Source: Planctomycetaceae bacterium
GTDB taxonomy: Bacteria; Planctomycetota; UBA1135; GCA-002686595
Length of the DNA: 64,000 bases
Direction: 5' to 3'
Assembly: GCA_016125265.1 (NCBI GenBank)
Contig: WGMC01000006.1
Coordinates: 1 to 64,000 of the forward strand
Below, piece after piece: positions 8,974 through 43,666 of the stretch (its first letter is position 1; every line of letters starts with the position of its first letter). The position numbers were made by a program, and so were the translations under genes. Below the pieces are notes generated by a model that saw only the letters and a program-made list of their open reading frames with translations, did not search any database and had not been told where the DNA came from.

Positions 8974-9119
8974 GCCGGGTGCGCGGGCCTCCCGGCCCGC
9001 CTTGTTCCGGACCCCGAGGTGCGGTCTGTAGGGGCGCGGCCCCGTCCGCGCCCAAGGGGAGGCGCACCGCGGTGACATCCCCGCGCTCCAAGGCGGGCCT
9101 GGAGGCCCGCGCACCCGGC
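8974..9119. repeat. Palindromic repeat, outer inverted pair (REP-like)
   Basis: Left arm 8974-9003 and right arm 9090-9119 are reverse complements over 30 bases with one mismatch. Each arm itself contains the hairpin GCGGGCCTCCCGGCCCGC or its variant. A very similar pair occurs at 21437-21542, beside a REP-associated transposase. This pair interleaves with another inverted pair (9025-9182). Confidence 0.85.
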
Positions 9120-9182
9120 GGCCCGCGCTCCTCACCAACTCATCGTTCCCCTTGGGCGCGGACGGGGCCGCGCCCCTACAGA
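9025..9182. repeat. Perfect 36-base inverted repeat
   Basis: Bases 9025-9060 and 9147-9182 are perfect reverse complements (36/36), beginning TCTGTAGGGGCGCGGCCCCG. The pair straddles the right arm of the previous palindrome, so the element is compound. Together with that palindrome it fills the 304-base gap 8885-9188 between two minus-strand genes; I see no other gene there. Confidence 0.85.
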
Positions 9183-12265: not shown

Positions 12266-13327
12266 ATGGGCGCGCGCAGCGGGAATCACCTCCCGGAAGT
12301 GGAGGGCATCGGCGATTTGGGTGCGTTCGCGCGCCTGCGTGTAGCCGTCGTGGGGGACCTGATCGCGGATCACTACGTCGAAGGGGTGCCGTCGCGGGTT
12401 TCGCGGGAAGCGCCGGTGCTGGTGCTGAGCCACCGGGCCGAGCGCTGGAGTGCGGGCGGTGCCGCCAACGTGGCGCGCAACGTGCGCGCCCTCGGAGCGC
12501 AGTGTCGGTTGCTCGGACTCGTGGGACGCGACGCCAGCGCGCGCCCGCTGCTCGAACTGCTCGAACGGGAGGGCCTCGACGCCAACGACGTCCGCACGGT
12601 GCCCGGCTGGCAGACCCCGACCAAGACCCGTGTGCTCGCCGGCGAGGACCACCGCACGCCGCAACAGGTGTTGCGCATCGACCGCGAACCCAGCGGTCCC
12701 GCGCCCGAGGACGCGCGGGTCGAACTGGCGCGGCGTGTGGCCGCGCTGGCGGGTCGGGTGGATGCGCTGATCGTTTCCGACTACGGCTACGGGGCACTCG
12801 AGCCGCACCTCGTGGCCGCGGTCGACAGCGTGGCCCGAGCCGGTGCGCGTGTGGTGCTGGACCCGCGCACGGGGCTCGGCGGGTTCGCGCGGCTCGACGC
12901 GCTCACACCGAACTTGGAGGAGCTGGCGCGGCTCTCGGGATGCGGACCCGCGGAGCTTTCGGATGGCCCGGGCATCCTCGTGGCGGCGAAGCGCCTGGCG
13001 GAGCGCGCGCGTGCGACCTTCGTGCTCGCGACCCTCGGCAACCGCGGCATGGCGCTCGTCGGAGACGGTGTGCCCGGAGGCGGTGCCTTCGTCGCGGCGA
13101 GCGGCGCTGATCGTGTGGTCGACGTCTCCGGCGCTGGGGACACCGCGGCCGCGGCCTTCGCGCTCGGCCTGGCGGCCGGATGGGCACCCGCGCGCGCCAT
13201 GGTGGTCGCGAATGCGGCCGCCGGACTGGTGGTGATGCAGATGGGCACGGCGGTGCCGGACCTGGCGGCGCTCGGCGCGGTGCTCGGCGATGTGCCCCAG
13301 TCCCAGGCGCTGGAGTGGACACGTTGA
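12266..13327 (+). CDS. hldA: D-glycero-beta-D-manno-heptose-7-phosphate kinase (HldA/RfaE domain I)
   Basis: A 353-residue stand-alone ribokinase-family protein equivalent to the first half of HldE. Motifs are VVGDLIADHYVEG with SREAP (residues 28-50), GGAANVARN (64-72) and VSGAGDT (Asp292), the base that activates the heptose hydroxyl. It should phosphorylate heptose-7-phosphate at C1. Its stop overlaps the following nucleotidyltransferase (TTGA). The window therefore has both a fused HldE (6066) and this split pair, so this copy may serve a different polysaccharide or a different heptose stereochemistry. Confidence 0.85.
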   Translation: MGARSGNHLPEVEGIGDLGAFARLRVAVVGDLIADHYVEGVPSRVSREAPVLVLSHRAERWSAGGAANVARNVRALGAQCRLLGLVGRDASARPLLELLEREGLDANDVRTVPGWQTPTKTRVLAGEDHRTPQQVLRIDREPSGPAPEDARVELARRVAALAGRVDALIVSDYGYGALEPHLVAAVDSVARAGARVVLDPRTGLGGFARLDALTPNLEELARLSGCGPAELSDGPGILVAAKRLAERARATFVLATLGNRGMALVGDGVPGGGAFVAASGADRVVDVSGAGDTAAAAFALGLAAGWAPARAMVVANAAAGLVVMQMGTAVPDLAALGAVLGDVPQSQALEWTR

Positions 13328-13833
13328 GAGGCGGGGCAGCGGGACTCGGCGCGAAGCGCTTTTGGCCGAGGGAGGAGTTGGCTCTCCGCCTTGCGGCGCT
13401 GCGCGCCGAGCGGCCCGTCGAAGTGGTGCTCGCGAACGGGTGTTTCGACCTCTTGCACGTCGGGCACCTGCGCTACCTGGCGGGGGCCCGCGCGCTCGGC
13501 GATCTGCTCGTGGTCGCGCTCAACACGGACGAGTCGGTGCGCGCGTTGAAGGGCGAGGGTCGGCCGCTCGTGCCGCTCGAGGAGCGCGCCGAGTTGCTGC
13601 TCGGCCTCGAGGTCGTCGACGCGGTCACGAGTTTTTCGGAGCGCGACCTCGGCAATACGCTCCGTGCCCTCTTGCCCGCGGTGCATGCCAAGGGCACGGA
13701 CTACCGCGCGGACACGGTCCCCGAAGCGGCGCTCGACCGGGCACTCGGCATCCGCGTCGCGATCACCGGCGACGCGAAGGACCACGCGACCAGCGAACTC
13801 GTGGCGCGGCTGGGGCGGAGCTCCGCACCTTGA
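13324..13833 (+). CDS. hldC: Heptose-1-phosphate adenylyltransferase-like protein (HldC/RfaE domain II)
   Basis: A 169-residue cytidylyltransferase-fold enzyme: ANGCFDLLHVGHLRYL with the HxGH motif at residues 45-48, NTDESVRALKGEGRPLV and the late AKGTDY motif, corresponding to HldE domain II. It would make ADP- or CDP-heptose. No ATG fits. TTG 13324, overlapping the hldA stop as TTGA and preceded by GGAG at 13312-13315, is chosen; GTG 13315 is an alternative. The HldA-HldC order mirrors domain order in HldE, suggesting a split or ancestral form. Confidence 0.82.
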   Translation: MRGGAAGLGAKRFWPREELALRLAALRAERPVEVVLANGCFDLLHVGHLRYLAGARALGDLLVVALNTDESVRALKGEGRPLVPLEERAELLLGLEVVDAVTSFSERDLGNTLRALLPAVHAKGTDYRADTVPEAALDRALGIRVAITGDAKDHATSELVARLGRSSAP

Positions 13834-14621
13834 CGACGCCCAGGTCCGCGTGGCTCCTGCCCCTCGGCGCGCTGATCGCGTTCGTGGGTGCCATGACGGG
13901 GGTTGGCGGCGGTGTGTTCGCCGTGCCGCTCTTGCACTTCGTCTGGAAGCTCGAGCTGAAGGTCGCCGTGGGCACGGCGCTGGTGCTGGTGGGGGCCAAC
14001 GCATTGTGTTCCACCGCGGTCGAGCTGCTGCATCCGCAGTGCGCCCTGCGCGTCGATCTGATCGCGGCGCTGGTGGTCGGAACATTGGTCGGCAACCAGG
14101 TCGGGCACCGCATCGCCCGCGCGATCGACACACGTATGCTCGCGCGGATCTTCGCGGTGGTGCTGGTGGTGACCGGCTTGCGCCTCCTGTTCCAGGGGCC
14201 GTCGGCGGCGGCGCTCGAGAGTGTGCTCGAGCTCGGTCCCGCGCAACTGGCCTACGCGGCGGTTTTCGGTTTGCTCGGCGGCATCGTCGCGCCGCTTTTC
14301 GGTGTGGGCGGAGGATTGGTGATGGTGCCGGGGCTGCTCTTTGCGCTGCCGGGCCTCGGCTTTCCCGCCGTGCGCGCGGCCAGCATGGGCACCAGCGTGG
14401 TCTCCGCGGCGCGCTCGGCCTGGCTGCACCACGGCGATGGCCGCGTGCGCTGGAACGTTGGTCTGTGGCTGGGTTCGGGGGCGTTGTTGGGCTCGGTGGG
14501 CGGCGTGCTCGTGGCCCATGGCGAAGGTTTCGAAGCGGTGGGCCGGCCGCTGTTGGGTGTGGTGCTCTTGGGCGTGGCGCTGCGCTTCGCCCTGGAATCC
14601 CGCCGCCCGAAGCCCACCTGA
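13830..14621 (+). CDS. TauE/SafE (TSUP) family membrane permease
   Basis: A 263-residue polytopic protein with about eight hydrophobic segments arranged as two repeats. Each repeat starts with the family's glycine-rich loop: TGVGGGVFAVPLL near residue 20 and FGVGGGLVMVPGLL near 155. TSUP proteins export or import small sulfur or carbon anions such as sulfite, sulfoacetate or taurine products; substrate is not predictable. TTG 13830 overlaps the hldC stop (TTGA), with GGCGGAG at 13814-13820 as ribosome binding site. It is the last gene of this operon and is followed by a long repeat region. Confidence 0.8.
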   Translation: MTTPRSAWLLPLGALIAFVGAMTGVGGGVFAVPLLHFVWKLELKVAVGTALVLVGANALCSTAVELLHPQCALRVDLIAALVVGTLVGNQVGHRIARAIDTRMLARIFAVVLVVTGLRLLFQGPSAAALESVLELGPAQLAYAAVFGLLGGIVAPLFGVGGGLVMVPGLLFALPGLGFPAVRAASMGTSVVSAARSAWLHHGDGRVRWNVGLWLGSGALLGSVGGVLVAHGEGFEAVGRPLLGVVLLGVALRFALESRRPKPT

Positions 14622-14711
14622 CAGCGCAACGTGCATGCGTCGCCGCGCGCGCGTCCGAACGGGGCAACGCGCGAGGAGCGCGCGCGCGTCCGAAAGGGGC
14701 AACGCCCCGTC

Positions 14712-14865
14712 CGATCGTAGCCTGGGGCAACGCCCCAGGTATTGCGGCAGACCCGGTCCGGGCTGAAGGCCCGGGCCATGCCGTCGGCACGTTGCGATGG
14801 AGCGGGCCTTCAGCCCTTGCACCGCTCTCCCGACGAACCTGGGGCGTTGCCCCAGGCTACGATCG
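14712..14865. repeat. Composite inverted unit, region A copy 1
   Basis: Arms 14712-14740 and 14837-14865 are perfect 29-base reverse complements. Each contains its own hairpin CCTGGGGCAACGCCCCAGG. Between them are complementary GGGCTGAAGGCCC and GGGCCTTCAGCCC boxes. A perfect 32-base palindrome (14869-14900) follows immediately. Confidence 0.9.
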
Positions 14866-14907
14866 GTCGCGCCGTTGGCGCTCCGGAGCGCCAACGGCGC
14901 ACCTGCA

Positions 14908-15103
14908 CGGGTTCGATCCGCACGACGCGCCGTCGGCGTGCGTGCGTGGGTTCGAGACATGCGGCGTGCTGTTGGCGCAGCATGGCCTCGCGACGTGCAG
15001 CGCGGCGTTGGCGCAGTTGCATGGGCTCGCGACGTGCAGCGCGGCGTTGGTGCGCGTGTCCGATTTCGAGACGTGCGGCGCGCCAGTTGCGTTGCTGTCG
15101 GCG
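14908..15103. repeat. Degenerate 36-39-base tandem array, region A
   Basis: Units begin at about 14912, 14951, 14987, 15026 and 15065. Those at 14987 and 15026 are 39 bases and share 26 identical leading bases (CTCGCGACGTGCAGCGCGGC...). The whole unit repeats, without unique spacers. The array sits between the two inverted units. Confidence 0.75.
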
Positions 15104-15141
15104 GCGAATGCGCGATTGTCCGAACGGGGCAACGCCCCGTC

Positions 15142-15295
15142 CGATAGTAGCCTGGGGCAACGCCCCAGGTATTGCGGTAGAACCGGTCCGGGCTGAAGGC
15201 CCGGGCCATGCCGTCGGCACGTTGCGATGGAGCGGGCCTTCAGCCCTTGCGCCCCTATCCCCACGAACCTGGGGCGTTGCCCCAGGCTACTATCG
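15142..15295. repeat. Composite inverted unit, region A copy 2
   Basis: Arms 15142-15170 and 15267-15295 are perfect 29-base reverse complements and match copy 1 except for one position in each arm: CGATAGTAG/CTACTATCG here, CGATCGTAG/CTACGATCG in copy 1. The two changes compensate, so pairing is conserved. The interior is nearly identical to copy 1. Confidence 0.9.
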
Positions 15296-15478
15296 GTCGC
15301 GCCGTTGGCGCTCCGGAGGACCCTGCGACTCGCGTCGTGCCGAACCAACGCGCGGCAGCACGCGGCCAGGGGCTGTCGCGCCGTTGGCGCTCCGGAGCGC
15401 CGTCGGCGCCCGCGCACGGGTTCGCGACGCGCTGTCGGCGGCGTATGCGCGCCCGTCCGAACGGGGCGACGCCCCGTC

Positions 15479-15505
15479 CGATCGTAGCCTGGGGCAACGC
15501 CCCAG
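15479..15505. repeat. Half unit of the composite repeat
   Basis: A single arm (27 bases, identical to copy 1 through the hairpin) lies directly downstream of the minus-strand gdh paralogue's stop codon. Its stem-loop could also act as a bidirectional transcription stop; it has no T-tract. Confidence 0.75.
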
Positions 15506-15508
15506 AAC

Positions 15509-16816
15509 TCAGGCGTAGATGCCGCGCAGCGCGCCCGCGTGGGCCACGCGGCGTACCGCCAGCATGTTGGCCGCCATGCGCAGGCGCACGCCGGAGTCCC
15601 CTTGGGACTTGAGCACGTCGTGCCACGCGTCGGTCATGAACCGCTCGAGGCGCTTGTGCACCAGACCCTCGAGCCACGCGAGGCCCTGGCGGTTTTGCAC
15701 CCACTCGAAGTAGTTCAGCACCACGCCGCCCGCATTGGCCAGGATGTCGGGCACCACCGGGATGCCGCGCTGGTCGAGGATGCGGTCCGCGCGCGCCGAA
15801 ACGGGCCCGTGGGCGCCCTCGAGCACCAACTTGGCGTCGAGGAGGTGCGCGTTGCGCGAATGCACCGCGTTGGCCACCGCGCACGGGGCGAAGATCTCGC
15901 ACGGGCGCGTCTGGAGTTCCGCGTTGTCGAGGCGTTCGGCCTCGACCGTCGCGTCCACCAAGTTGCCGTGTTCGCGGCGGTGAGCCAAGAGCGCGGGCAC
16001 GTCGAGCCCGTTCTCGTTGTAGAACGCCGCGCGGGCGTCCGAAAGGCCCACCACGCGCCAGCCGATCTCGAACAGGAGCCGCGCCAGGTTGCCACCCACG
16101 GTGCCCGCGCCCTGCACGATCACGCGGGGCCGCGCCGAAATCTGGTAGTGGTCCACCGCGAGGCGCGCGATGGTGCGCAGGCCCCGGGCCACCGCGTCCA
16201 AGTTGCCCTTGCTTCCCGCGATCGCCATCGGTTTGCCCGTGACGACGGCGTTCTCCGTGTGGCGCACGTGCAGCGAAACCGCGTCCATGACCCACGCCAT
16301 GAGGCGCTCGTCCGAGGCCACGTCCGGCGCGAAGATGTCGGTTTCGGGGCCGATCACGTCGAGCAGGTTGGCCGTGTAGCGGCGCACCGCGCGCTCGAGT
16401 TCCGCGTCGCTGCGTTTTTGTGTGTTGATGCGAATGCCGCCCGCCGAACCGCCGAAGGGCACGTTCAACGTGGCGCACTTCCACGTCATCCACGCGGCCA
16501 GTGCGCGGACCTCGTCGACGTTGAGCGTCGCACTGAGTTTGAGCGGCCCGAGGAAGGGCCCGAGGCCCTGGTTGTGCTGCACCCGGTAGCCGTCGAACAC
16601 GGCGACCTGGCCGCTGTCGAGGCGCACCGGGATCGAGCAGGTGATCTCGCGGTCCGGCTTTCGCAGGATCTGGTAGACGTCGGGGCTGATGCCCAACTTC
16701 TCGGCGGCCTCGTCGAAGAGGCTCATCATCGTCGCGAACGGCGATTCTTCGTCGAGCGGGGGCGTGTGAGGCAGCAGGTCTTCCTGCTCCTCCGGCGAAT
16801 GGGTCGTGGTGCTCAC
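15509..16816 (-). CDS. Glutamate dehydrogenase paralogue lacking the catalytic Lys
   Basis: A 435-residue Glu/Leu/Phe/Val dehydrogenase-family protein. It keeps the overall fold, the dinucleotide-binding VIVQGAGTVGG motif, the catalytic Asp (APDVASDE, Asp165) and one substrate Lys (TWKCA, Lys113). The two other key lysines are gone: the glutamate side-chain Lys in GPAKGGIR is Leu89 (GPFLGPLKL), and the catalytic Lys in GGGKGG is Ala125 (GGSAGG). It is therefore unlikely to deaminate glutamate itself. It lies 19 bases downstream of an intact paralogue. A regulatory partner subunit, as GdhA is for GdhB in Thermus thermophilus, is an attractive model. GTG 16816 is chosen because AGAGGA lies 8 bases upstream; a GTG at 16849 would overlap the upstream gene. 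Confidence 0.8.
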   Translation of the reverse strand: MSTTTHSPEEQEDLLPHTPPLDEESPFATMMSLFDEAAEKLGISPDVYQILRKPDREITCSIPVRLDSGQVAVFDGYRVQHNQGLGPFLGPLKLSATLNVDEVRALAAWMTWKCATLNVPFGGSAGGIRINTQKRSDAELERAVRRYTANLLDVIGPETDIFAPDVASDERLMAWVMDAVSLHVRHTENAVVTGKPMAIAGSKGNLDAVARGLRTIARLAVDHYQISARPRVIVQGAGTVGGNLARLLFEIGWRVVGLSDARAAFYNENGLDVPALLAHRREHGNLVDATVEAERLDNAELQTRPCEIFAPCAVANAVHSRNAHLLDAKLVLEGAHGPVSARADRILDQRGIPVVPDILANAGGVVLNYFEWVQNRQGLAWLEGLVHKRLERFMTDAWHDVLKSQGDSGVRLRMAANMLAVRRVAHAGALRGIYA

Positions 16817-16835
16817 CTTGGGTGTCCTCTTCGGT

Positions 16836-18122
16836 TCAGGAGAGCACACCGCGCAGGCGGTACGCAGTGGCCACGCGGTCGATCGCGAGGATGTAGGCCG
16901 CGATGCGCATGGACGTGCCGTACTTCTTGGCCACCTTGTCCACGTCGTAGAACGCGCTGACCATCGACTGCTCGAGGCGCGAGTTCACTATCTCTTCGGT
17001 CCAGAAGTAACCCATGCGGTCCTGGACCCACTCGAAGTAGGAAACCGTCACACCGCCCGCGTTGGCGAGGATGTCGGGCACCACCAGCACACCGCGCTCT
17101 TCCAGCTTCTTGTCCGCCGCCGCGGTGGTGGGGCCGTTGGCGCCCTCCACGATCAGCTTGGCCTTGATGCGGTCGACGTTCTGGGAGGTGATCTGGTTCT
17201 CGGTCGCGCAGGGGGCGAGGAGGTCGCAATCGAGCTCCAAGAGCTCCGCGCCGCTGATGCGGTCGGCGTCCTTGTAGTCGGCCAGGGAACCGTGTTCCTT
17301 GATCCACGCGAGCACGGCGGGCATGTCCAGACCCTTCTCGTCGAGGATGCCGCCGGAGACGTCGCTGATCGCGATGACCTTGTACCCTTCGCGGTGCAAG
17401 AGCAGCGCGCCGATGCCACCGACGTTGCCCGAACCCTGCACCACCGTGCGTGTGTTCTCCGGGCGCATGCCGAGTTTCTTCAGCGCCTCACGGCAACTGA
17501 TCATCACGCCGCGCCCGGTGGCTTCCGTGCGGCCGCGGCTGCCGCCGAGGGCGAGGGGCTTGCCCGTCACGATCGCCGTGGTGCTGCGGCGCACGTGCAT
17601 CGAGTAGGTGTCCATGAGCCAAGCCATGGTCTGCTCGTTCGTGTTCATGTCGGGCGCCGGCACGTCGCGGTCGGGCCCGAGGATGTCCATGATCGACGTC
17701 GTGTAGCGGCGCGTGAGGCGCTCGAGCTCCGACTTCGACAGCTCCCGCGGATTCACGATCACACCGCCCTTGCCGCCGCCGAAGGGCACGTTGACGACCG
17801 AGCACTTCCACGTCATCCACGCCGCCAGCGCGCGCACTTCGTCGAGGTGCACGTCGGGCGCGAAGCGGATGCCTCCCTTCGCGGGGCCGCGCACGAAGTT
17901 GTGCTGGACGCGGTAGCCCTTGAACACACGGAGATTCCCGTCGTCCATCATGACGGGGATCGAAACGGTCAGTTCGCGGTCGGGGTTGCGCAGCACTTCG
18001 CGCACGCCGCGATCGAGTCCCAGGTGGTCCGCAGCGACATCGAAGCGCTCGGCCATGGCCAGGAACGGGTTGAACTCGTCCGCTTGGCTCAGGGGCGAGG
18101 CGAGAGCGGTTCCGCTCGACAT
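16836..18122 (-). CDS. gdhA: Glutamate dehydrogenase (intact catalytic residues)
   Basis: A 428-residue NAD(P)-dependent enzyme converting glutamate to 2-oxoglutarate and ammonia. All catalytic residues are present: Lys82 in GPAKGGIRF, Lys106 in TWKCSV, catalytic Lys118 in PFGGGKGGV and Asp158 in APDMNTNE. The Rossmann motif is [10 protein letters not shown], and length fits the hexameric bacterial class. ATG 18122 gives [10 protein letters not shown]. It is the first gene of a two-gene operon with the diverged paralogue 19 bases downstream. It diverges from the heptosyltransferase pair across a 309-base gap. Confidence 0.92.
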
Positions 18123-21584: not shown

Positions 21585-22223
21585 TCATCCGTTGCCATCC
21601 TTGGTCGCGGACCTCCGGCCGCCCCATGCGCTGCCCCATCTCCACTCTTCGGGGCATCTACACAGCCCGGCGGCTACAGGGTTGGCGCGGATGTACCAGC
21701 GCACATCGGCGAAGTGCGTGTCGTTCCGCACGAATCGATCGAAGTAGTCCGGCATCCAGAATGCGCCCGTCCGATCCAGGAACTGGTTCGCGCGTCTCGC
21801 GACAAACGACTTCCATGAGCGCACGATTCCGTACACGGGAAAGTCCGCGAACGTGCGCACCAGTGCGTGCACGTGGTTGGGCATCACGCACCATTCGAAC
21901 AGCGTGTAGCGGCGCCCGTCGAAGTGGAGCAGGGTGTGTTCGACTAGCTCCGCGATACGAGGAACGCGGAGAAAGCAGGACCCGTGACCGGCATCTTCGA
22001 AGCGGTCGATGCGGGCGCGCAACTCGCGCTGCTGCGCTGTGTCCCCGCGCCTGAGTTCGGCCTTCCAACGCGCCAAGAGTTCGGCGGGAACGCTGTCGTG
22101 GAGTCGGAACGTCAAACTCTGAATGACGTCCCGGGCCTCGAAGTGAGGGTGATATCCGCGCGAGTGCCAGGGGGTGCGCCGCGGCTGCGGGCCGTGCGGA
22201 TCGCTTTCGTCCCGGGTATGCAT
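21585..22223 (-). CDS. REP-associated tyrosine transposase (RAYT, Y1 HUH family)
   Basis: A 212-residue IS200/IS605-related single-strand endonuclease. The opening WHSRGYHPHF and VIQSLTFRLHDSVP are typical of RAYTs. The metal-binding HUH is MPNHVHALV (His117, His119), and the catalytic Tyr160 lies in DYFDRFVRND, followed by VRWYIRANPVAAGL. RAYTs are domesticated or semi-mobile transposases that cut and spread REP palindromes rather than themselves. A palindrome lies 43 bases past its stop. ATG 22223 gives a family-length protein; the frame continues upstream to 22379. A degenerate GC-rich hairpin may flank the 5' side (about 22341-22390). Confidence 0.88.
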   Translation of the reverse strand: MHTRDESDPHGPQPRRTPWHSRGYHPHFEARDVIQSLTFRLHDSVPAELLARWKAELRRGDTAQQRELRARIDRFEDAGHGSCFLRVPRIAELVEHTLLHFDGRRYTLFEWCVMPNHVHALVRTFADFPVYGIVRSWKSFVARRANQFLDRTGAFWMPDYFDRFVRNDTHFADVRWYIRANPVAAGLCRCPEEWRWGSAWGGRRSATKDGNG

Positions 22224-22421
22224 GGTTCGCCCGTCGGTCCCATTCCGGCGCTTGCGCACGATCGCCGAGCGCGAAGTTTCGGGGACGACGGAGTAAGACG
22301 TTCCCACCGGCCAGGCGGTGTCACTTTGGATCGCCAAGAAGTGGCGCGGGCCTGTCCGGCCGGGATACGTGGCGCGCACCCGGTGTCCCTCGCGCCCAGG
22401 CTCCGTGCCGTCGGGCGCGCT

Positions 22422-43131: not shown

Positions 43132-43336
43132 CGATCGTAGCCGGGGCAACGCCCCAGGTTTGGCGGGAAGTGGAACCCAGGGCTGAAAGCCCGCACCGAC
43201 GCACGTCGCCCACGCAACGTGCCAACACAACGTGCCGAAGCAACGTGCCAACGCAACGTGCCGACGGCATGGCCCGGGCCTTCAGCCCGGACCGGTTGTG
43301 CCGCAATACCTGGGGCGTTGCCCCAGGCTACGATCG
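43132..43336. repeat. Composite inverted unit, region B
   Basis: Arms 43132-43159 and 43308-43336 are reverse complements except for one missing base in the left arm (GCCGGGGC against GCCTGGGGC). Each is the same 28-29-base element as in region A. The unit is longer than region A copies because of extra tandem sequence inside. Confidence 0.88.
43211..43262. repeat. Four 13-base tandem repeats
   Basis: Units 43211-43223, 43224-43236, 43237-43249 and 43250-43262, consensus AACGCAACGTGCC. They lie inside the region B inverted unit. Confidence 0.9.
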
Positions 43337-43399
43337 AGCGGGGCGTTGCCCCTCCCGGACGGTCCGACGTCGGCGAGCGCGTTGCGCATCTCCTGGAGC

Positions 43400-43623
43400 G
43401 CCAACGGCGCGTTGCGTACCGCAGAGCATTCGGGCTGCCTACGGCGCGTTGCGCACCGCAGAGCATTCGGGATGCCAACGGCGCGTTGCGTACCGCAGAA
43501 CATCCGGGATGCCAACGGCGCGTTACGTACCGCACGGCCTTCTGGAGCGCCAACGGCGCGTTGCGCACCGCAGAACACTTGGGCTGCCAACGGAGCGTTG
43601 CGTACCGCAGAGCCTTCTGGAGC
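43400..43623. repeat. Six 37-38-base tandem repeats
   Basis: Units start at 43400, 43437, 43474, 43511, 43549 and 43586, then a partial seventh at 43624. Each begins GCCAACGGCGCGTTGCGTAC (small changes) and ends with CATTCGGGAT or CTTCTGGAGC variants. Conservation runs through the whole unit, with no unique spacers, so it is not a CRISPR array. Confidence 0.92.
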
Positions 43624-43637
43624 GCCAACGGCGCGAC

Positions 43638-43666
43638 CGATCGTAGCCTGGGGCAACGCCCCAGGT
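43638..43666. repeat. Half unit of the composite repeat, region B
   Basis: The same 29-base arm, identical to region A copy 1, followed by an AGGGCTGAAGGCCCGCTCC-like box at about 43687-43705. It closes the tandem array on its right side. Confidence 0.85.

Follow-up and report, generated by a model that had tools for sequence, protein, structure and literature searches.

What is the hairpin-rich element that separates two convergent genes at 14696-15506 of the window, a stretch of 64,000 nucleotides (contig C3:1-64000) from a planctomycete genome of 5.11 Mb in 48 contigs? An initial annotation, made from the sequence of the window, described two inverted units with a tandem array between them, a change in each arm that was compensated in the other, and a recurrence of the same parts elsewhere in the window. 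We examined the anatomy of the locus, its copies in the genome and in other genomes, and the gene that may have dispersed it.

Anatomy of the two clusters in the window

Both inverted units (14712-14865 and 15142-15295), with their perfect 29-base arms and internal hairpins, were found again, as were the 32-base palindrome at 14869-14900, the C/A difference between the arms of the two units and the degenerate array of 36-39-base units between them. The cluster extends further than had been annotated, to 14696-15506, and beyond 15319 it includes a third REP and the tail hairpin that belongs to it. The 29-base arms are GTAG-tagged REPs of the form GTAG-CCTGGGGC-AAC-GCCCCAGG, and five copies are present at the locus, at 14717(+), 14838(-), 15147(+), 15268(-) and 15484(+). 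The tail hairpin of the first REP, GGGGCAACGCCCC (14696-14708, +), is one of two covarying types (GGGGC../GCGCC..). In dimer 1, REP 1 (GTAGCCTGGGGCAACGCCCCAGG; 14717-14739, +) is identical to the consensus. It is followed by the inner hairpin GGGCTGAAGGCCC (14760-14772, +), by an inverted copy of this hairpin (14804-14816, -) and by REP 2 (14838-14860, -), which lies head-to-head with REP 1, GTAG outwards, and coincides with a match to the Acido-Lenti-1 model (14838-14882). The palindrome at 14869-14900 consists of a tail hairpin, GCGCCGTTGGCGC, and the first array unit. The degenerate array itself (14888-15082) is a minisatellite private to this site, in which TRF detects 2.5 copies of a 39-bp unit at 14987-15082. 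Dimer 2 has a tail hairpin at 15126-15138 (+), REP 1 at 15147-15169 (+), a pair of inner hairpins (15190-15202 and 15234-15246) and REP 2 at 15268-15290 (-), with an Acido-Lenti-1 match at 15268-15312. The third REP is single (15484-15506, +; tail hairpin 15463-15475) and ends 2 bp short of the stop codon of the downstream convergent gene. This gene (15509-16849, -; stop at 15509) encodes a Glu/Leu/Phe/Val dehydrogenase of the glutamate-dehydrogenase type, and the upstream convergent gene (13830-14621, +) is of the TauE/SafE type according to Pfam, the open frame that was scored being 13290-14621. Gene starts and ends were predicted with a simple caller based on codon usage, which was written for this analysis. 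No intrinsic terminator with a T-tract was found within 14550-15600. The cluster is apparently neither an integron nor a CRISPR: there are no open cassettes at the locus, and the array units of the family are degenerate, 12-75 bp long and different from site to site.

The initial annotation stated that the same parts recur in the same order at 43132-43666. Instead, this region contains one imperfect dimer, a different 37/75-bp array and a single REP. The left REP of the dimer (43137-43158, +) has one base missing and the right REP lies at 43309-43331 (-). The array (43393-43635; TRF, 62-304 of the gap starting at 43332) holds 3.3 copies of a 75-bp (2 x 37) unit and, except for a hairpin core, is unlike the array of the first cluster in sequence. 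The single REP (43643-43665, +) coincides with an Acido-Lenti-1 match at 43621-43665 (-). The second cluster likewise lies between convergent genes.

The arms belong to a dispersed GTAG-REP family

The arm is not confined to these two sites. When the genome was searched with the REP 23-mer at up to 3 mismatches, 212 copies were found (103 forward and 109 reverse), and the reversed pattern gave 0 copies genome-wide at the same threshold. In 171 complete copies, the core bases are conserved at 0.96-1.00 almost throughout, with one loop base lowest, and the spacers that flank the core are variable. The GTAG foot is conserved at 0.98-1.00 and the stem is 8 bp, in line with the unpaired GTAG and 6-13 bp stem that define the GTAG-REP superfamily. 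Upstream of GTAG, a further hairpin takes one of two forms, GGGGCAACGCCCC or GCGCCAACGGCGC, in which two variable pairs change jointly. Inverted REPs at a conserved spacing, the hallmark of REPINs and BIMEs, are present as 34 head-to-head dimers (GTAG outwards) spaced at 118-150 bp, most often (22 dimers) at 121-122 bp; in addition, there are 60 tail-to-tail pairs, 126-684 bp apart, and 13 same-direction pairs. The 212 copies are dispersed and extragenic, 0 of 67 sampled clusters being within a called gene. Thus, the REP dimers fit the GTAG-REP dimers of Di Nocera et al. (PMC3733652), and the claim that the element is not of a known kind does not hold for the features that we tested.

The surveys of loci drew on about 1 Mb of the genome, taken as stretches. 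One 446-bp cluster occurs, together with its array, both on contig C6 and on contig C37, with 96% identity and unrelated flanks; about 300 bp separate the end of the copied cluster from the end of a contig, and a chimeric assembly is therefore possible. Many contig ends break inside REP clusters (for example, those of C1, C9, C10, C12, C20, C26, C35 and C39), and therefore copy number and array length are underestimated. At C3:64970 (locus L091:6471-6556), the head hairpin of the REP occurs four times in tandem with a spacing of 21 bp. A SAM riboswitch was observed on contig C5 (locus L099:16223-16335). There is also a second dispersed family of inverted pairs with a GTAG foot (TGTAGGGGCGCGGCCCYGTCCGCGCCCAAGGGG). 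In the window, it lies at 9028-9179, between the convergent genes 8606 and 9188, and about 30 matches at up to 2 mismatches, often as head-to-head pairs, were found in the approximately 1 Mb sampled.

Pairing between the arms is at chance level

The change in each arm had been read as compensated in the other. Either selected pairing or copying of one arm from the other had been considered; under selection, the arms would be kept complementary as parts of a functional structured RNA or DNA with long-range pairing. The arms are indeed perfect in both units of the window, and unit 1 folds very stably (-71.6 kcal/mol vs -33.3 kcal/mol for shuffles; z = -13.3). However, long-range covariation was absent over 33 sibling dimers. 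Whole-arm pairing in these dimers was 95.9%, as compared with 96.0% in shuffles, and pairs changed on both sides numbered 1, as compared with 1.7 by shuffling. The variable arm position (columns 5/212 of the alignment) is A-U in 13 dimers, C-G in 5 and unpaired in 15; counted without alignment, the variable base is paired in 18 of 34 dimers, where shuffling predicts about 17.4. Position 2/215 is unpaired in 12 of the 33 dimers, with 0 compensated pairs. Thus, arm mutations that destroy long-range pairing, which had been named beforehand as evidence against a selected structure, occur in the family. Because both arms are copies of one conserved REP, they are complementary in any case, and we judge selection for long-range pairing to be very improbable.

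Compensation is present at a shorter range, inside single REP hairpins across genomes (CCTRGGGC/GCCCYAGG and CCTTGGGC/GCCCAAGG). Stem variants in which pairing is kept in other genomes are CCTAGGGC..GCCCTAGG, CCTTGGGC..GCCCAAGG and CCTGTGGC..GCCACAGG. A cross-genome table of stems built from loci with the exact 23-mer is biased and was left out of this comparison.

A tnpA gene lies inside matching ends

A single tnpA gene is enclosed by one of the head-to-head REP pairs (C27:22343-23073, locus L108), in which the REPs are 708 bp apart. The product of this gene, of 150 aa, is an IS200-type HUH/Y1 protein with the motifs DHVH, WQ and YIDEQEKHH. The ends of this element are near-identical inverted repeats of at least 57 bp, which contain the REP and the inner hairpin GGGCTGAAGGCCC, as do the dimers of the window. 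Since the ends share both parts with the dimers, the dimers of 121-150 bp, those at 14717-14860 and 15147-15290 included, are most simply read as non-autonomous, gene-less derivatives (REPIN/MITE-like) of a parent of about 730 bp. The suggestion that the locus is a mobile or structural element was right. It belongs to a REP family of about 200 copies with tnpA inside matching ends. Two findings count against the transposon reading: only one recognised tnpA of this family is present in the genome, and NCBIfam assigns the protein to IS200/IS605 and not to REP_Tyr_transpos.

The closest solved relatives of the protein are TnpA structures of the ISDra2 type. Judged by motif and length only, the protein appears to be a TnpA-Y1 of subclass 1.2, for which DH[IV]H, WQ, Y--Q--HH and a length of about 148 aa are characteristic. 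The Y--Q--HH motif was found in 40 of the 42 homologues collected, and the Y--NP motif of class 2 (RAYT, TnpA-REP) in 0 of 42; thus, the protein is not a RAYT by this motif. The inverted ends of 57 bp also separate the element from IS200/IS605 subclass 1.1, which has same-strand asymmetric hairpin ends and no inverted repeats. Quentin et al. described subclass 1.2 as low-copy, generally without terminal hairpins and without REPs (PMC6006769). This trait is not shared by the present family, since 16 of the 37 loci have Acido-Lenti-1 ends. A homologous gene is likewise enclosed by two such REPs in five further genomes (Rhodopirellula, Aporhodopirellula, Pirellula, Lacipirellula and a Verrucomicrobia MAG), and two homologues on Bacteroidota plasmids lie between inverted palindromic arms.

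A second Y1 transposase gene is present in the window at 21585-22379 (-). It is of the class 2, REP-associated type (MPNHVHALV, YIRANP), with a score of 70 bits for NF047646 against a cut-off of 80. This RAYT-like gene was considered as the cognate transposase and rejected, there being no GTAG REP of the main family nearby. It could be the transposase of the TGTAGGGGCGCGGCCCYGTCCGCGCCCAAGGGG repeats.

The Acido-Lenti-1 model matches ends of the element

The Acido-Lenti-1 model (RF01687; 46 nt) spans the head hairpin, the CTAC linker and the tail hairpin of the REP end. The paper that defined it lists it as a probable RNA (PMC2864571), and no link of Acido-Lenti-1 to a transposase was found in the literature searched. 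As labelled by Rfam, the matches would be genes of a true small-RNA family. The three sites in the window score 37.3-38.5 bits, at or above the gathering score of 37, and nine further matches were found in ten sampled loci of the same genome; the tnpA element of this genome has ends that score 33-35 bits, below gathering. However, at least about 50 copies are present per genome in several genomes, no neighbour gene is constant except tnpA, and the matches form inverted pairs at tnpA ends. Acido-Lenti-1 lies within 200 bp of tnpA in 16 of the 37 loci, where direct reading of the sequence gives more, and at both ends in 7. The orientation at tnpA ends is head-to-head in 25 cases and otherwise in 2, and the distance is 42-160 bp. 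In 99 genomes of the phylum, Acido-Lenti-1 is present in 24, the transposase in 20 and both in 19 (Fisher p = 7e-15, a value that is indicative only, given the non-independence of related genomes). Acido-Lenti-1 is absent from all 14 control genomes. We therefore give a small-RNA gene family hardly any credence. Two loci (L178:1144-1348 and L159:798-963) match the miRNA models MIR1437 and MIR537 far under the cut-offs; these are chance matches on hairpin-rich repeats.

Clusters lie mostly between gene 3' ends, and most tail-to-tail gaps contain private minisatellites

Among the 67 sampled clusters, 43 could be placed relative to genes: 35 are in convergent, 7 in tandem and 1 in divergent gaps. 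By comparison, 15 of the 226 other gaps of at least 50 bp are convergent. Gene ends that face clusters are 3' ends in 99 of 106 cases. We also sampled 464 kb systematically, taking 19 stretches from a fixed position in the contigs, one contig start and the window. In this sample, REPs occur in 5 of the 24 gaps that are convergent, in 3 of the 105 that are tandem and in 0 of the 43 that are divergent (Fisher p = 0.0015). An early estimate that REPs lie in most convergent gaps came from loci chosen around REPs and was biased; it is replaced by the 5 of 24.

Of the 55 tail-to-tail gaps, 44 contain tandem arrays; their units measure 12-75 bp and are often 17 bp long. Only 17 of 1225 pairs were similar among the 50 longer arrays; the arrays are thus mostly private to their sites. 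Away from REPs, the background is 89 TRF loci in 566 kb, of which 14 have a score of at least 100.

The repeat was not recognised in relatives of the same family or order

A search for the REP pattern in 40 genomes of the same family or order gave no recognisable copy, and BLAST with the whole unit gave no real copy in family and order relatives. PF07596, a marker that many named genomes of Planctomycetota share, is absent here. The exact 23-mer is present in Planctomycetota, in Verrucomicrobiota and in a MAG labelled as Kiritimatiellota. In a tree of tnpA proteins, that of the window's genome and the Kiritimatiellota protein are sisters (96/92); a protein from Opitutales branches within a clade (100/100) that otherwise consists of Pirellulales-type Planctomycetota. 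The simplest interpretation is that the REP was gained and expanded recently, probably through horizontal transfer, with MAG binning and thin sampling as caveats on this history.

Discussion

In all likelihood, the locus is a GTAG-REP cluster of a dispersed family of single-strand-DNA transposons, with a tnpA parent of about 730 bp and gene-less dimers. We infer the following for the activity of TnpA and its consequences. TnpA would bind the single-stranded REP hairpin with its 5' GTAG foot, for example on the lagging-strand template. By analogy with TnpA-REP (PMC8266576), it may cut beside the hairpin and then move or copy the unit. Copies would last in the gaps where two convergent genes end, the sites at which they are least harmful or of some benefit. 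There, the strong hairpins probably induce slippage and hence tandem duplication nearby, which would give each cluster its own minisatellite. Moreover, the clusters may form 3'-end structures on transcripts from both directions.

Placement raises the question of whether the host has recruited the repeats as 3'-end elements (bidirectional terminators, 3'-stabilisers of mRNA or gyrase sites), TnpA being their origin only. The concentration of clusters in convergent gaps and at facing 3' ends would be expected of such elements, the core is conserved at nearly all bases while the spacers drift, and REPs of other genomes likewise prefer gaps of the convergent and unidirectional kinds, close to 3' ends (PMC3733652). 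However, tolerated insertion at 3' ends accounts for the placement without any function, about four-fifths of convergent gaps have no REP, T-tract terminators are absent at the cluster, and the repeat is missing from all 40 relatives of the family and order. We consider recruitment less likely than not. It is more doubtful still that the repeats are passive, having spread only through recombination, slippage and gene conversion, with tnpA as a hitch-hiker. The private arrays do show active local duplication and one cluster was copied whole, but passive processes fit poorly with dimers of fixed 121-122 bp at dozens of unrelated sites and with tnpA in matching inverted ends across several phyla.

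A wider proposal reaches beyond the locus, and we see the chances for and against it as about equal. Subclass 1.2 TnpA, hitherto an orphan, would be the transposase of a distinct REP system that has inverted three-hairpin ends (tail, TAG-footed head and inner) and is present in Planctomycetota, Verrucomicrobiota and perhaps Bacteroidota. This system would have spread between phyla and expanded to about 200 copies in a genus-level lineage, unlike the vertical and slow picture of REPIN/RAYT, and Acido-Lenti-1 would be its end. The proposal joins three things that are unlinked in the literature searched: a REP family of Planctomycetota and Verrucomicrobiota, a "REP-less" transposase subclass and an Rfam small RNA. 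If it is true, small-RNA gene is the wrong annotation for Acido-Lenti-1 matches, and TnpA of subclass 1.2 acquires a DNA substrate that can be tested. Furthermore, about 200 REPs in this genome against none in 40 relatives would be a natural experiment on REP invasion, settling at 3' ends and the seeding of minisatellites.

Comparison with known systems

With GTAG-REP dimers, REPINs and BIMEs (PMC3733652, PMC8049555, PMC8266576), the family shares the GTAG foot, 8-bp stem, 3-nt loop, hundreds of copies, inverted dimers, extragenic position near gene 3' ends and a cognate Y1 locus. It differs from them in that the dimers add two hairpin pairs (tail and inner), the transposase is of the IS200-like subclass 1.2 and not a RAYT, and most tail-to-tail gaps contain private minisatellites. 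The transposase resembles published TnpA-Y1 of subclass 1.2 (PMC6006769) in its length of about 150 aa, DH[IV]H, WQ and Y--Q--HH motifs and low copy number. In contrast to the published members, which have no REPs and are mostly from Cyanobacteria and Bacteroidetes, it has head-to-head REP flanks and occurs in Planctomycetota and Verrucomicrobiota. In REPtrons and TIRtrons of the P. putida type, a degenerate GTAG REP and a further stem-loop, joined together, flank the gene (PMC3733652). Both systems have a Y1 transposase enclosed by inverted double-hairpin ends, as well as many gene-less copies, whereas the transposase class and the hosts are different here and the GTAG-REP is intact. What was described as Acido-Lenti-1 RNA (RF01687; PMC2864571) is here a repetitive transposon end, not a gene. 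Finally, the family has the HUH/Y1 fold, hairpin ends and tetranucleotide foot of IS200/IS605; however, instead of asymmetric hairpins on the same strand, it possesses inverted ends with GTAG outwards on both sides, and most of its copies are gene-less.
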